In this document: piece by piece, positions 28,920 to 35,904 of the stretch | Numbering within the stretch: position 1 is the stretch's first letter | Layout: each line of letters opens with the position of its first letter | From: a virus | Length of the DNA stretch: 35,904 bases | Virus record (IMG/VR): IMGVR_UViG_3300008110_000328 | Span: 1-35,904 of that record | Direction: 5' to 3' (one strand) | Program-made: the position numbers and the translations under genes | The notes under the pieces: generated by a model | The model's database searches: none | What the model saw: the letters and a program-made list of their open reading frames with translations, nothing else | Told to the model about the DNA's origin: nothing

Positions 28920-29612
28920 ATGACTAGAATAGTCGTAATTTCAGACACTCATGGCAAGCATGGCGCGCCTTTACCAGACGGAGACGTTCTCATCCATTGT
29001 GGCGATTTCTGCTCTCATGGCCAATACAAAGACGCAATCCAATTTTTGGGCTGGTTCCAAGCGCAACCTCACCAAAGAAAAATTTTCATTGCTGGAAATC
29101 ATGATCTTGTTTTTGAGCAAGGCTCATATCACGACATTGAAATGCTCACCCATGTTTTTTTGAACGATTCCACCCACTATCTCAACGATAGCGGAATTAA
29201 TCTGTTTGGGATAAACTTTTGGGGCAGTCCAGTTCAACCAAGATTCTTTAATTGGGCATTTAACAGAGATCGCGGCGCAGATATTAAAAAGCATTGGGAC
29301 AAAATCCCAAGCGGCACCGATGTTCTCATCACTCACGGTCCACCTTACAAGATTTTGGATGAAGCTCCTCGTTGGAATTTTGGCTCTTATGAGAATGTAG
29401 GATGCAAAGATTTGCTGGATAAGGTTTTAAAAGTTAAACCTAAACTGCATGTCTTTGGGCATATCCATGCTTCAGGTGGTCAAACTTTTTCTACGGATCA
29501 TACTATTTATGCTAACGCCTCAATCTGCACTGAGGAATATGTTCCACTCAACAAACCATTTATTTTTGACATTGACGAAAACAAGAATATCGATATCATA
29601 AATATACACTAA
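28920..29612 (+). CDS. Calcineurin-like metallophosphoesterase (MPPED/239 type)
   Basis: 230 residues. All metal-binding motifs are present: SDTHGKHG (D9, H11), CGDF (29-30), AGNHD (58-62), ITHGPPY and FGHIHASGG. The short size, the DTHGKHG opening and the LFGINFWGSPV middle segment match the MPPED1/239-like group of phosphodiesterases. The substrate is unknown; members hydrolyse cyclic nucleotides or other phosphodiesters. As the first gene behind a host-like promoter it is likely made early. It could act on a nucleotide signal or on nucleic acid ends, but the sequence does not tell which. Confidence 0.85.
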   Translation: MTRIVVISDTHGKHGAPLPDGDVLIHCGDFCSHGQYKDAIQFLGWFQAQPHQRKIFIAGNHDLVFEQGSYHDIEMLTHVFLNDSTHYLNDSGINLFGINFWGSPVQPRFFNWAFNRDRGADIKKHWDKIPSGTDVLITHGPPYKILDEAPRWNFGSYENVGCKDLLDKVLKVKPKLHVFGHIHASGGQTFSTDHTIYANASICTEEYVPLNKPFIFDIDENKNIDIINIH

Positions 29613-31916: not shown

Positions 31917-32014
31917 AATTCGATACAAAGAGTGAGCGCTTTCAATTTGTTTTAATGATTTTAGCAATCATCGCGGATGTTGCCCTTATAGTTAATATTA
32001 TTCACCATTGGTGA
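31913..32014 (+). CDS. 33-residue single-helix membrane micro-protein
   Basis: The sequence MKFDTKSERFQFVLMILAII... ends NIIHHW. Residues 12-30 form one membrane helix after a charged N-terminus. Its ATG overlaps the stop of the 41-residue frame as ATGA, so translation would be coupled. A terminator hairpin follows. Similar tiny one-helix proteins lie at 32112-32204 and 32727-32807. Confidence 0.45.
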   Translation: MKFDTKSERFQFVLMILAIIADVALIVNIIHHW

Positions 32015-32726: not shown

Positions 32727-32807
32727 TTATCTTTTTCTTTGTCGTTGCGTAAGTAGCACAGCGACAAGGACTAAGAATAAAACAAGGGGAAAGAATTCCG
32801 CGTTCAT
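32727..32807 (-). CDS. 26-residue single-helix membrane micro-protein, coupled to the gp88-like gene
   Basis: MNAEFFPLVLFLVLVAVLLT followed by QRQRKR. A hydrophobic helix (about residues 5-20) with a strongly basic C-terminus gives a clear one-helix membrane topology. The ATG overlaps the TGA of the upstream 229-residue gene as ATGA, so ribosomes finishing that gene can restart here. No similar gene is known to me; the size and charge pattern recall small lysis or membrane-stress peptides, without proof. Confidence 0.5.
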   Translation of the reverse strand: MNAEFFPLVLFLVLVAVLLTQRQRKR

Positions 32808-33493
32808 GCCACGACAAATCCGGTCTTGTCTTTCTTTCCGTCGCCCTTTGCCTTCAGGCCCACGACCACGTTGCGCCTGTCAAGGAAACGCAAGTCGCTT
32901 TCGTCACCGTTGACCACTTCGAACCCTTGCCACGTTGAGGGAAGGACACTAGCGAACACCACCGCAACGTTGCCACCTGCGCGCAGCACGTCGAGGGCTT
33001 GCGCTTCGTTGCTTTCGCTGCGCGAGAAAGTCAAATGGTAGTTGCTAGGCAATGCACCTTTAGCAAATTGCAAGGCACGAATAGGTGATTTCGAATAATC
33101 GTAGAACTGCACACTAGGGAACGCAGCGAACACGCCGAGACGCTCCCATGCAATGTCAGATGTTCCGTTGAGGCGAACACAAGCGCGCATCCCTTGCTTT
33201 TCACAACTAGCAACGAAGGCGCGAATGTCAGCGAAGAGAAGAGCTTTGAAGGTTGACGCATCGTCAAAAAATAATTGTGTGCGGCGAATGCGCGCTTGCT
33301 GCACGTTTGACATCTTGCCTCGCCCAGCCGTGTAAAGGCACGCAAGCGTGCATCCGATTGACCGATGCGTGCAGACTTCACCACGCCCAGCTTGGCGCGC
33401 TGGCGCGAGGTAAAGAATCGCGGTGAGCCATCCGAAAGCTTCGCCCTTGCTAGTCTTGGCATCCGCGCCAACCGAAAGAAGATTTAGTTTCAT
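32804..33493 (-). CDS. Phage gp88/DUF7227-like protein of unknown function
   Basis: 229 residues. NLLSVGADAKTSKGEAFGWL, AILYLAPARQAG, VCTHRSIGCTLACLYTAGRG, RIRRTQLFFDD, VRLNGTSDIAWERL, VQFYDYSK and YHLTFSRSESNEA are conserved blocks I recall from a family widespread in phages and plasmids (named gp88-like or DUF7227 from memory). The Cys-x6-C-x3-C cluster at about residues 41-52 may bind metal. The pattern of a substrate-like pocket (R-L-N-G-T-S-D) suggests an enzyme, but no reaction is known to me. Its stop is shared with the micro-protein at 32727-32807. Confidence 0.75.
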   Translation of the reverse strand: MKLNLLSVGADAKTSKGEAFGWLTAILYLAPARQAGRGEVCTHRSIGCTLACLYTAGRGKMSNVQQARIRRTQLFFDDASTFKALLFADIRAFVASCEKQGMRACVRLNGTSDIAWERLGVFAAFPSVQFYDYSKSPIRALQFAKGALPSNYHLTFSRSESNEAQALDVLRAGGNVAVVFASVLPSTWQGFEVVNGDESDLRFLDRRNVVVGLKAKGDGKKDKTGFVVA

Positions 33494-33626: not shown

Positions 33627-33627
33627 G

Positions 33628-33692
33628 AAAAAAAATCAGAAAAAAAATGAAAAAAAACTTGCGCGGGGCCGTTTTTCTGGTAAGGTAACAGC
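33628..33692 (+). promoter_or_regulatory. A-tract promoter of micro-gene 1, leaderless layout
   Basis: Three A8 tracts (33628-33635, 33640-33647, 33650-33657), about 10-12 bp apart, lie directly before TTGCGC (33659-33664). After a 16-nt spacer comes TAAGGT (33681-33686) and, 6 nt later, the ATG at 33693. The A-tracts are on one face of the helix and could act as an UP element or bend. Confidence 0.55.
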
Positions 33693-33893
33693 ATGAAAAA
33701 ACAAATGCATTATGGTTGGGCGTCGGAGATAATTGCGCGAGGCGCGGATTGCGCCGCCGCTTACGCTGCGCAGCAAGCAAAGGCGACAGTCAACACCCGC
33801 TTTGAAATTGCTAAAGCGATTTTCGAGGAATATATAGTAATCGCCCCAAAGGGCAATATAACTGTTATACGCTGGTTTAAAAAAGATATATAA
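33693..33893 (+). CDS. Small hypothetical protein, array gene 1
   Basis: 66 residues (MKKQMHYGWASEIIARGADC...EEYIVIAPKGNITVIRWFKK). The middle is Ala-rich and the C-terminus is a beta-like basic stretch. There is loose similarity in layout to array gene 6 (a WSSVIIHTGENCDAAW-type first half, then T-E-Y-I-V), suggesting common ancestry: W-x-S-x-I-I-x-x-G-x-x-C-x-A-A appears in both. Function unknown. It has its own promoter and no Shine-Dalgarno. Confidence 0.55.
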   Translation: MKKQMHYGWASEIIARGADCAAAYAAQQAKATVNTRFEIAKAIFEEYIVIAPKGNITVIRWFKKDI

Positions 33894-33916
33894 GGGTTTA
33901 TATAAGGGTTTATATA
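33889..33916. repeat. Tandem TATAAGGGTTTA repeat after gene 1
   Basis: The 12-mer TATAAGGGTTTA occurs twice in tandem at 33889-33912 and is followed by TATAG. A GGGGAA/TTCCCC hairpin lies at 33934-33947. Comparable TATATA-plus-G repeats follow genes 3 and 5 of the array. Confidence 0.5.
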
Positions 33917-33950
33917 GTGGGGGGGGTGGGGTGGGGAATTTTCCCCAAAT

Positions 33951-33965
33951 CCGGGCCTGGCCCGG
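33951..33965. repeat. Palindrome CCGGGCCTGGCCCGG, copy 1
   Basis: A perfect inverted repeat of 7 bp around one T. The same 15-mer, with T or A in the centre, occurs four times between 33951 and 35562 and nowhere else that I noticed. It lies between the gene 1 repeats and the gene 2 promoter. Confidence 0.8.
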
Positions 33966-34019
33966 CGCCCTGCGTCAAGCAAAAAAATAAAAAAACTTTT
34001 CACGCGAAAATCGTGTCAA

Positions 34020-34107
34020 GAAAAAAATAAAAAAAATCAGAAAAAAAAATCGAAAAAAATCCGAAAAAAAAGTTGACCGCACAAAAAAAACCGTCATTCT
34101 CTGAGAC
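34020..34107 (+). promoter_or_regulatory. A-tract promoter of micro-gene 2, leaderless layout
   Basis: A-tracts at 34041-34049, 34053-34059 and 34064-34071 (about 11 bp apart) end next to TTGACC (34073-34078). A 17-nt spacer leads to ATTCTC (34096-34101), then 6 nt to the ATG at 34108. The same hexamer and gap recur before gene 6. The -10 is far from TATAAT, so a special factor or a strong UP element may be needed. Confidence 0.55.
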
Positions 34108-34368
34108 ATGAAAACAACCACCACCAAAGTCACCAAGACCACCAAGTACGTCACCAATCTGATCGCGAAAGTTGAAATGACCTACGTTCCCGATCACTGC
34201 GTTGCCACCCGCACCATCAAGGTGGGCGAAATCGTCGCGAAGCGCGAAGGCGCTGGCTGGTACGAGGTCTGGGGTTTCGAAGGCAACCCCGCCGAAAATT
34301 TCCGCGTCGAGCACCTTGCGGTCACGCGCACCATCACGACGGAAATCGTCACGGAAGTGGTCGAATAA
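34108..34368 (+). CDS. Small hypothetical protein, array gene 2
   Basis: 86 residues, Thr-rich at both ends (MKTTTTKVTKTTKYVTNLIA ... TRTITTEIVTEVVE) with a beta-rich centre (VATRTIKVGEIVAKREGAGW, YEVWGFEGNPAENFRVEHLA). The pattern suggests a small beta-barrel. G+C-rich third codon positions are in line with the other array genes. No family recognised. It has its own leaderless-type promoter. Confidence 0.55.
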   Translation: MKTTTTKVTKTTKYVTNLIAKVEMTYVPDHCVATRTIKVGEIVAKREGAGWYEVWGFEGNPAENFRVEHLAVTRTITTEIVTEVVE

Positions 34369-34393
34369 AAATCGCAAAAAAACAAAAAAACGC

Positions 34394-34428
34394 TTGCAAC
34401 TTACCAAAAAACCCTCACTCTCTTTCTC
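34394..34428 (+). promoter_or_regulatory. Promoter of micro-gene 3, leaderless layout
   Basis: TTGCAA (34394-34399), 17 nt, ACTCTC (34417-34422), 6 nt, ATG at 34429. A-runs precede the -35. Distance from the -35 start to ATG is 35 nt, as in genes 2, 4 and 6. Confidence 0.5.
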
Positions 34429-34635
34429 ATGAACAAAAACGATATCAAAAACCACTACTTCACTTCTCGCGCTTTCGGCGCTGGCACGGATTCTTTCCTG
34501 ATGGGAAGCGCGCTGCGCAGCGTGATGCCGAGCCTCTCGGTGAGCGACAGCGAAAAGCTGGCAAACGCCTTTGCCGAAAGGCTGAAGACCTACATGGACG
34601 AAGCCAAGGACTATGCCGAGAGAATCGGCGATTAA
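34429..34635 (+). CDS. Small hypothetical protein, array gene 3
   Basis: 68 residues (MNKNDIKNHYFTSRAFGAGT...). The N-terminal half is Ser/Gly/Met-containing and the C-terminal half is one amphipathic helix (DSEKLANAFAERLKTYMDEA, KDYAERIGD). No family recognised. GC-rich codons. A strong G/C hairpin follows the stop. Confidence 0.55.
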   Translation: MNKNDIKNHYFTSRAFGAGTDSFLMGSALRSVMPSLSVSDSEKLANAFAERLKTYMDEAKDYAERIGD

Positions 34636-34640
34636 TATAA

Positions 34641-34660
34641 GGGGGCTATATAAAGCCCCC
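34641..34660 (+). terminator. Hairpin after array gene 3
   Basis: GGGGGCT (34641-34647) pairs with AGCCCCC (34654-34660) around ATATAA, 5 nt after the stop. No T-run follows, so it may stabilise the 3' end rather than terminate. Confidence 0.5.
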
Positions 34661-34699
34661 GCCTTTGCTATATAGTGTTTGTATAGACTCTATATCAAA

Positions 34700-34714
34700 C
34701 CGGGCCTGGCCCGG
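34700..34714. repeat. Palindrome CCGGGCCTGGCCCGG, copy 2
   Basis: Identical to copy 1, after the TATATA-rich tail of gene 3 and about 37 nt before the first AATGTTCCACG repeat. Confidence 0.8.
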
Positions 34715-34751
34715 CGAAGTGCGCGCCAAACGCAAATGTCAAGTGAAAAAA

Positions 34752-34844
34752 AATGTTCCACGATGGCCGAAATGTTCCACGCTTCAAACTGAAATGAAAT
34801 TCAAATTGAAATGAAATGTTCCACGATGCGGAAAATGTTCCACG
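34752..34844 (+). repeat. AATGTTCCACG direct repeats, cluster 1 (4 copies)
   Basis: The 11-mer starts at 34752, 34771, 34815 and 34834, all in plus orientation. Members of each pair are 19 bp apart, two helical turns, and the pairs share the context CCACGATG...AATGTTCCACGCT. TGTTCCAC is also a half-site of the bacterial parS sequence, but no inverted partner is present. The cluster lies just upstream of the gene 4 promoter and is probably a multi-copy protein binding site. Confidence 0.8.
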
Positions 34845-34848
34845 CTCC

Positions 34849-34915
34849 AAAAAAAATCTGAAAAAAATCTGAAAAAAAAGTCGACTGCACCGAAAAAAGT
34901 TTCATGCTCTCTCTC
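34849..34915 (+). promoter_or_regulatory. A-tract promoter of micro-gene 4, leaderless layout
   Basis: A-tracts at 34849-34856, 34861-34867 and 34872-34879 (11-12 bp apart) run up to TCGACT (34881-34886). After 17 nt comes ATGCTC (34904-34909), then 6 nt, then the GTG at 34916. The spacing shows that the ATG at 34904 belongs to the -10 position and that GTG is the start. Confidence 0.5.
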
Positions 34916-35086
34916 GTGAACCTCATCACCTCCCTCCCCTCCACCGCCGCCGCCGAAATCGCTGCTCTCTCCCCTGCCGAGATTGCCGAGATGGAGGCGT
35001 TTTTCGCCTTCGTCGATTCCGTCAACGACGAGGTTGACGCCGCTTGGGATCGCCTCGCGAGCCTCGTCGATTCGGGGGCGCTGTAA
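34916..35086 (+). CDS. Small acidic hypothetical protein, array gene 4
   Basis: 56 residues from GTG (MNLITSLPSTAAAEIAALSP ... FVDSVNDEVDAAWDRLASLV). It is Ala/Glu/Asp-rich and helical, with two short amphipathic helices. The start was set by the promoter spacing shared with the other array genes; an ATG four codons earlier lies within the -10 hexamer. The terminator stem overlaps its last codons and stop. Confidence 0.55.
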   Translation: MNLITSLPSTAAAEIAALSPAEIAEMEAFFAFVDSVNDEVDAAWDRLASLVDSGAL

Positions 35087-35099
35087 GCCCCCTTTTTTT
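35074..35099 (+). terminator. Intrinsic terminator overlapping the end of array gene 4
   Basis: GGGGGC (35074-35079) pairs with GCCCCC (35087-35092) around a 7-nt loop holding the TAA stop, followed by T7. This is the clearest terminator of the right end. Confidence 0.85.
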
Positions 35100-35113
35100 C
35101 TTTCACTTTTTTC

Positions 35114-35147
35114 TTTACCCTCACGGATTTTTTCTTACTGTTTTCTC
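35114..35147 (+). promoter_or_regulatory. Promoter of micro-gene 5, leaderless layout
   Basis: TTTACC (35114-35119), 17 nt, ACTGTT (35137-35142), 5 nt, ATG at 35148. It directly follows the gene 4 terminator and lacks the A-tracts and AATGTTCCACG repeats of its neighbours. Confidence 0.45.
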
Positions 35148-35369
35148 ATGAGCATCAACCTCACCCTCACCCTCACCGAAGCCTCCCTCGTTCTCTCCGC
35201 GCTGCGCAATGCAGCCGACGCGATGAACGCGCCGCAGCTGGATGCGGTCATCGACACCCTACAGGCGTCCTACAACGCCGCCAACGAGGAGGAGCCGTTT
35301 GACGGCTTCCGCACCGATGCGGAGGCGGATGCGGATGCCCTCGCGTCTGTTTACGGACCTGAAGAATAA
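35148..35369 (+). CDS. Small acidic hypothetical protein, array gene 5
   Basis: 73 residues from the ATG at 35148 (MSINLTLTLTEASLVLSALR ... DADALASVYGPEE). LTEASLVLSALRNAADAMNA and LDAVIDTLQASYNAANEEE are two helices; the C-terminus is acidic. The frame is open further upstream, but that part overlaps gene 4 out of frame, and the promoter spacing supports this ATG. No family recognised. Confidence 0.55.
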   Translation: MSINLTLTLTEASLVLSALRNAADAMNAPQLDAVIDTLQASYNAANEEEPFDGFRTDAEADADALASVYGPEE

Positions 35370-35374
35370 TATAT

Positions 35375-35406
35375 AGTCCCCTCTATATAGGGACTCTATA
35401 TAGGGA
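35375..35406. repeat. Tandem CTCTATATAGGGA repeat and hairpin after gene 5
   Basis: The 13-mer CTCTATATAGGGA is repeated twice (35381-35393 and 35394-35406). AGTCCC at 35375-35380 can pair with GGGACT at 35390-35395. It resembles the TATATA/G tails after genes 1 and 3. The whole gap 35370-35721 holds no gene; it contains these repeats, two palindromes, the second repeat cluster and the gene 6 promoter. Confidence 0.6.
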
Positions 35407-35438
35407 CTTTACATCCCTTTGTATAGCGCTATATAAAT

Positions 35439-35453
35439 CCGGGCCAGGCCCGG
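35439..35453. repeat. Palindrome CCGGGCCAGGCCCGG, copy 3
   Basis: Same 7-bp inverted repeat as copies 1 and 2, with A in the centre instead of T, about 33 nt after the tandem repeat. Confidence 0.8.
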
Positions 35454-35547
35454 TGAAAAACCCAAAATTTCGCGAGCCAAGCGATTTTCAATATGGGTAA
35501 AAATCCCCAATAATAAAAATTACGACCAGGTGCACCAGGCAAGGATT

Positions 35548-35562
35548 CCGGGCCAGGCCCGG
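35548..35562. repeat. Palindrome CCGGGCCAGGCCCGG, copy 4
   Basis: Identical to copy 3, 109 nt further on and 37 nt before the second AATGTTCCACG cluster, the same distance as copy 2 from cluster 1. Confidence 0.8.
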
Positions 35563-35598
35563 CGCTTCAGTGCAAAATGAAATTTCAAACCAAAGTGA

Positions 35599-35660
35599 AA
35601 TGTTCCACGCTGAAAAAAATGTTCCACAAAAATGTTCCACGACGTTGCGAATGTTCCACG
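35599..35660 (+). repeat. AATGTTCCACG direct repeats, cluster 2 (4 copies)
   Basis: Copies start at 35599, 35619 (ends CCACA), 35631 and 35650, with steps of 20, 12 and 19 bp, all in plus orientation. The pair at 35631/35650 repeats the composite unit of cluster 1 (CCACGACG...AATGTTCCACGCTCC). It stands upstream of the gene 6 promoter. Confidence 0.8.
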
Positions 35661-35664
35661 CTCC

Positions 35665-35721
35665 AAAAAATAATTCGAAAAAAAATTTGACTTCACGAAA
35701 ATTTCGGTCATTCTCTGAACT
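35665..35721 (+). promoter_or_regulatory. A-tract promoter of micro-gene 6, leaderless layout
   Basis: A-tracts at 35665-35670 and 35678-35685 precede TTGACT (35687-35692). A 17-nt spacer, ATTCTC (35710-35715) and 6 nt lead to the ATG at 35722. Hexamers and gaps match the gene 2 promoter. Confidence 0.55.
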
Positions 35722-35904
35722 ATGAAAAACAAATTCTATCGGTCCGCTTCGAAAAATTATCGCTGGTCCTCGGTCATCATTCACACTGGCGAAAATTGCG
35801 ACGCGGCTTGGAAAGCGTGCAAGGCTCGCGCCACTAATGGCAGCATTTTCCAAATCGTTCCCGCTACCTCCACGGAATACATTGTCGAATTTTCTTCGGG
35901 ACAT
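35722..35904 (+). CDS. Small hypothetical protein, array gene 6, cut by the right edge
   Basis: 61 residues are visible (MKNKFYRSASKNYRWSSVII ... STEYIVEFSSGH), and the frame is open at the window end. WSSVIIHTGENCDAAWKACK resembles WASEIIARGADCAAAYAAQQ of array gene 1, and both have a later E-Y-I-V, so the two may be distant paralogues. Function unknown. Confidence 0.55.
   Translation, partial: MKNKFYRSASKNYRWSSVIIHTGENCDAAWKACKARATNGSIFQIVPATSTEYIVEFSSGH

Follow-up and report, generated by a model that had tools for sequence, protein, structure and literature searches.

The 35,904-base virus contig analyzed here over its full length (the window; IMG/VR record IMGVR_UViG_3300008110_000328) ends in a 2.3-kb array of six small plus-strand genes, designated g1 to g6, each of which is preceded by a promoter-like block at an almost constant distance from the start codon. 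With a probability of roughly 0.7, we interpret this region as an early-type array in which each gene would have its own sigma-70-type promoter, firing at, or one base ahead of, the start codon and producing leaderless mRNAs. It belongs to a lineage of large double-stranded DNA phages known only from metagenome contigs. The predicted promoter unit would consist of a UP-like A-tract (at most genes), STTG(A/C), 16 nt, and YANNNT. As the last base of the -10 box lies 7 to 8 nt before the start codon, the +1 position would fall on the first base of the ATG or on the base ahead of it, so that the mRNAs would be leaderless and would be translated from their 5'-terminal AUG without a Shine-Dalgarno sequence. 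From the position, size, and promoter type of the genes only, we infer that they are expressed early and that their products may have host-modifying roles; the array presumably relies on the host RNA polymerase and on leaderless translation.

The first base of the -35 box is found 34 or 35 nt 5' of the start codon in all six genes, as had been stated in an earlier, sequence-only reading of this DNA; the two hexamers are 16 nt apart, and 6 or 7 nt separate the -10 box from the start codon. The g1 promoter (33659 to 33686) combines TTGCGC (33659 to 33664) with TAAGGT (33681 to 33686), has a 6-nt gap, and follows A-tracts at positions 33627 to 33657. Four promoters have a 7-nt gap: those of g2 (34073 to 34100; TTGACC and CATTCT, the latter at 34095 to 34100), g3 (34394 to 34421; TTGCAA and CACTCT at 34416 to 34421), g4 (34881 to 34908; TCGACT and CATGCT at 34903 to 34908, ahead of a GTG start), and g6 (35687 to 35714; TTGACT and CATTCT at 35709 to 35714). 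The g5 promoter (35114 to 35141) consists of TTTACC and TACTGT (35136 to 35141) with a 6-nt gap. All six -10 boxes fit YANNNT, with TANNNT in two genes and CANNNT in four, and all have the -11A and -7T typical of sigma-70 promoters. The sequence-only reading had placed the first of these hexamers, TAAGGT, correctly but the other five (ATTCTC, ACTCTC, ATGCTC, ACTGTT, and ATTCTC) one base too far to the right, and its description of the -10 boxes as C-rich and unlike TATAAT was mainly due to this register error. Its observation that most promoters stand directly behind A-tracts applies to five genes, the exception being g5, which has a T-rich, terminator-derived stretch in that position. The reported lack of Shine-Dalgarno sequences was confirmed for five genes; in g1, an AAGG is present, but it lies within the -10 box.

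Relatives of the window were collected using the neighboring GP88-like protein (32804 to 33493, minus strand; Pfam GP88), a search that returned 71 viral loci, about a dozen of them with 90 to 95% protein identity. Among 129 ATG-initiated open reading frames (ORFs) of at least 50 amino acids (aa) from seven nonredundant array regions, taken irrespective of promoter score, TTG[AC] starts 35 nt before the ATG in 33 and 34 nt before it in 11, whereas each of the remaining distances from 20 to 60 nt is represented by 0 to 9 ORFs, mostly by 0 to 4. On the opposite strand of the same 129 ORFs, TTG[AC] is never found at 34 or 35 nt. In a 2.9-million-contig viral collection, TTGAC followed by CATTCT at exactly 17 nt was detected in ten array contigs of this lineage and in seven contigs outside it; widening the spacer by two bases left four matching contigs, none of them from this lineage. 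The seven outside contigs were considered as possible arrays and rejected: five share one conserved sequence before an MLNLDSIEQ ORF, and the other two (L093 and L096) are unrelated. The extended motif TTGAC[CT][GT]CAC is found in 17 copies in eight contigs, and 14 of these copies are in the leaderless promoter geometry.

Orthologous upstream regions show 96% identity in the -35 pentamer, 80% in the spacer, 72% in the upstream A-rich (UP) region, and 60% in the six bases before the ATG (the discriminator); positions -12, -11, and -7 are 100% identical among orthologs, which is partly favored by selection for promoter score. Blocks rich in A, spanning approximately -38 to -43 and -48 to -54, resemble UP elements, the sites contacted by the alpha subunits of the polymerase. 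In individual families, the g1 promoter is kept in three relatives (L002, G002, and G003) and that of g2 is the same in G001 and L005, while the g3 ortholog in L013 has TTGCAA-16-CATTCT-7 and the g4 orthologs have TTGACC-16-CATTCT-7. The sequence-only reading had named loss of the spacing in related genomes as an outcome that would tell against it; the spacing is kept in the relatives. A-tracts become frequent at about position 32000, where the array region begins and the GC content rises abruptly from about 0.36 to 0.49. A chimeric assembly was considered for this jump near 32 kb, but most close relatives are collinear with the window across it, which rules out an assembly artifact as the source of the array.

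A strict version of the promoter pattern is matched by four of the six genes, compared with a mean of 0.11 and a maximum of 3 in 2,000 dinucleotide shuffles of the region. Shuffles for each start gave P values of 0.0002 to 0.016, which are only indicative, as the weights were set after inspection of the data. Several observations weigh against one leaderless sigma-70 promoter per gene. A scan for 9 of the 12 bases of the TTGACA/TATAAT consensus detects none of the six promoters (the consensus is that of Escherichia coli), which makes the match to this consensus weak by itself; the boxes are poor by that standard, and C is favored at -12 and -8. The preference for C is real despite the register error noted above, with C at -12 in 25 and at -8 in 28 of 38 nonredundant upstream regions. 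These 38 regions, from which the information profile was built, were themselves chosen by promoter score, as were the upstream regions used for family clustering, while the spacing scans and the distance count in the 129 ORFs are free of such selection. Finally, the promoter is retained in two g5 homologs (L011/G004 and L018/G009), yet about 19 to 24 nt lie between its -10 box and the ATG, which indicates that the promoter block is separable from the start codon, and the g5 homologs of G007 and G008 have no promoter. Leaderless starts, as proposed by the sequence-only reading, thus appear to be the rule but not a requirement, and the case, as read from sequence comparison, is carried by the constant spacing and by the fact that relatives have kept it.

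The six ORFs are genuine genes: relative to their orthologs, they show dN of 0.07 to 0.56 and dS of 0.19 to 2.3, with dN/dS ratios of about 0.11 to 0.61, and the consistently lower dN indicates that all six are real. The first, g1 (33693 to 33893), encodes a basic protein of 66 aa (dN, 0.11 to 0.17; dS, 0.65 to 1.0) and is a paralog of g6 (35722 to 35904), whose basic product has at least 61 aa, the gene being cut off by the end of the window; both belong to family F1. The 86-aa product of g2 (34108 to 34368) belongs to family F5 (dN, 0.16 to 0.19; dS, 0.33 to 0.45), and the 68-aa product of g3 (34429 to 34635), in family F9, has a 43% identical ortholog in L013. The g4 gene (34916 to 35086) encodes an acidic protein of 56 aa (pI 4.1). 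An in-frame ATG at 34904 sits inside its -10 box and is not conserved, and the orthologs have ATG at the position of the GTG, which settles the start at 34916. The product of g5 (35148 to 35369) is a very acidic, helical protein of 73 aa in family F3 (dN, 0.07 to 0.09; dS, 0.19 to 0.29). The six proteins show no Pfam match above the cutoff and no PHROG match below 0.01; a weak PADLOC match of g4 to AbiEi (E value, 0.004; 14.7 bits) was treated as chance. A confident AlphaFold2 model of the g1 family has a beta-alpha-beta-beta-beta arrangement (pLDDT 82), and a Foldseek search with it found no PDB match at an E value below 0.6; the model of g5 consists of three helices and is of moderate confidence (pLDDT 71).

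The content and order of array families vary between genomes, and several of the differences begin at the start codon. In one clean instance, the end of the upstream gene and the promoter agree between G003 and G001 in 138 of 140 positions as far as the ATG, where G003 continues with a different reading frame. A relative of the frame swapped into G003 stands behind a different promoter in G001, and the promoter ahead of the displaced gene of G003 is similar to the one found in yet another family. In G004, an unrelated frame follows the promoter of the g5 family (at 35148 in the window). The F8/F19 pair provides a further start-codon junction, although the block ahead of it has no -11A and its message may have a leader. 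Related phages therefore appear to have exchanged coding parts behind their promoters. Where promoter and start codon are fused, their junction would be a natural exchange point, and a new reading frame arriving at the ATG would be expressed immediately. We tentatively suggest that the fused promoter-ATG unit might be the working joint of plug-in cassettes, in which conserved leaderless promoters stay and serve as recombination junctions while tiny frames are swapped, each expressed immediately with neither a leader nor a ribosome-binding site, allowing quick turnover of host-modifying genes. The changes in order and content and the exchanges at the start codon, together with the comparative evidence above, back the view of the sequence-only reading that this is a modular set of individually promoted, leaderless genes.

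An alternative that we consider unlikely, yet deserving of attention, is that the array is expressed mostly in longer messages entering from upstream and that the per-gene promoters merely boost or restart transcription. Array genes are grouped in pairs and triples, with gaps of 38 to 64 nt that hold little beyond the promoter. Gaps in this range that have no terminator join pairs of genes, and read-through could occur across such gaps of 45 to 64 nt. A clear intrinsic terminator (GGGGGC-loop-GCCCCC-TTTTTTT; 35074 to 35099, plus strand) is found only in the g4-g5 gap, which it opens, overlapping the g4 stop codon; the pattern recurs after the g4 ortholog in G001 to G004. However, read-through alone would not keep a fixed promoter-ATG distance for each gene across relatives, and the internal genes of such messages would be without ribosome-binding sites. 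The array probably does have leaderless per-gene promoters, and its genes may, but need not, be transcribed strictly one at a time.

Most of the longer gaps (200 to 1,150 nt) contain GGGCC-N-GGCCC palindromes (CCGGGCCWGGCCCGG or variants) and TATATA-rich hairpins, and those of the closest relatives additionally carry TGTTCCACG direct repeats. The palindromes in the long array gaps of the window are 15 nt long and have the form CCGGGCC(T/A)GGCCCGG: CCGGGCCTGGCCCGG is found at 33951 to 33965, in the long gap after g1, and at 34700 to 34714, and CCGGGCCAGGCCCGG at 35439 to 35453 and 35548 to 35562. Copies of CCGGGCCWGGCCCGG number from 1 to 9 in each of G001 to G004 and G006 and five in G009, and none is present in G007 or G008; a terminator, a protein-binding site, and a recombination site are candidate roles. 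The window also has four TGTTCCACG direct repeats at 34754 to 34844 and four TGTTCCAC(G) direct repeats at 35601 to 35660. In all, these two stretches contain eight copies of the TGTTCCAC(G) repeat, all on the plus strand. This repeat is half of the parS-like TGTTCCACGTGGAACA, and such repeats are present in G001 to G003. A search of Rfam found no match in the window.

It is also doubtful, though conceivable, that genuine promoters with leaderless starts are recognized here not by the housekeeping sigma factor of the host but by an alternative one or one encoded by the phage, which would explain the C at -12 and -8. A 193-aa protein of the distant relative G008 (L115, 15791 to 16372, minus strand) shows a very weak match to Sigma70_r2 (E value, 0.12), whereas a Sigma70_r3 match is absent in five relative records. 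Against such a factor, the TTGAC of the -35 box, the spacing, and the invariant -11A and -7T are all sigma-70 features, and these phages have, in their AT-rich part, leaderless promoters with the standard TTGACA and TAAAAT or TATAAT boxes (at 28920 and 29808). Moreover, a second motif, GTGTAAA, is a stronger candidate for a promoter under phage control; it is found 7 to 23 nt upstream of the ATG in virion genes and others (28866, 16240, 15302, 14210, and 1787 on the minus strand and 31215 on the plus strand). It sometimes directly follows a terminator-like hairpin and is kept at the same genes in G002 and G009. This motif likely represents a second, late-type promoter class, and the 193-aa protein of G008 is a possible phage sigma factor reading it.

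We regard as improbable the proposal that the block is a start-associated binding site, such as a repressor operator, a stoperator-like site, or a translation signal. Its TTGAC is similar to operators that overlap a -35 box, a translation signal could lie in the stretch of pyrimidines ahead of the ATG, and start-linked repeats are known in cluster K mycobacteriophages, where start-associated sequences (SAS/ESAS) precede many small genes (PMC3203893). Like the SAS, GGGATAGGAGCCC, which has a ribosome-binding-like stretch and is conserved across the subclusters of that group, the array block is repeated in one orientation before the starts of varied small families (PMC3203893). Unlike the SAS, it is a two-box promoter with a predicted leaderless start, and the SAS itself is absent: GGGATAGGAGCCC with up to two mismatches has no match in the window. 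A promoter would be expected to show two boxes with fixed spacing, a UP-like A-tract, and an unvarying distance to the ATG, and in the G004 and G009 copies with a displaced start codon the block moves as a unit. The idea that A/T-rich spacers and overcalled small ORFs produced the pattern by chance has a negligible probability; a relaxed promoter pattern does occur at many ORFs elsewhere, but chance is contradicted by the shuffles, dN below dS, the peak at 34 to 35 nt, and the spacing-shift control.

The leaderless geometry is also found beyond the array, at 28920, 29808, and 32684 (the latter on the minus strand), so predicted leaderless starts are not confined to it; the geometry looks like a general early-gene habit of this phage that is concentrated in the array. 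The 127-kb contig of the relative G008 (L114 to L118, L082, and L083) encodes a DNA polymerase III alpha subunit, DnaB, a RecA-like protein, dUTPase, ribonucleotide reductase, and a ClpC-like ATPase, and the window may derive from a genome of comparable size. Clusters of tRNA genes in relatives (L074 and L082), mostly for A- or U-ending codons, suggest that the phage is AT-rich and its host richer in GC. The array region has no DNA match among known plasmids, and the last 10 kb of the window has none among known phages; terminase matches in the phage collection are only distant. The sole terminase relative in the genome collection, a 14.9-kb contig in a Flavobacteriaceae metagenome-assembled genome bin, was considered as an indication of the host and set aside as too weak.

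Several known systems share features with this array. The host takeover modules of Bacillus phage SPO1 and phage T4 have many small early genes of unknown function and numerous strong sigma-70 promoters, and their early genes have leaders with Shine-Dalgarno sequences, often with several genes per promoter. The array has small genes without convincing family matches and a promoter-like block at each, and it may resemble such modules if its promoters are early; nearly every array gene has its own predicted leaderless promoter. Thermus phages, such as P23-45, whose host has many leaderless genes, produce entire classes of transcripts, the middle and late ones, in leaderless form. In the array, too, phage genes would be expressed from leaderless mRNAs, but here the promoter-ORF cassettes are arrayed. 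In Actinobacteria and Deinococcus-Thermus, a start-proximal TANNNT box has been widely described for leaderless genes (PMC3160421 and PMC12340547). Like these TA-led genes (Zheng et al. 2011, PMC3160421; PMC12340547), the array genes have YANNNT about 12 to 13 nt before the start and little or no Shine-Dalgarno sequence, and the mRNA start is expected at the start codon (PMC3160421). Unlike the bacterial genes, they each have a -35 box and mostly an A-tract, prefer C at -12, and are packed in an array with one promoter per tiny gene. One predicted leaderless promoter per tiny gene, maintained throughout a lineage despite differing gene content, is a new combination; no prior description of it was found in the literature searched, which omits most subscription journals.

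Small early phage genes are a main source of host-modifying and counterdefense proteins, and little is understood of how they are acquired and wired for expression. Should the array mRNAs have their 5' ends at the start codons, a single 45-nt promoter would be the entire control sequence needed for a new gene. The predicted unit may also be of practical use for finding, and correctly starting, tiny genes of metagenomic phages that callers based on ribosome-binding sites may miss or mis-start.

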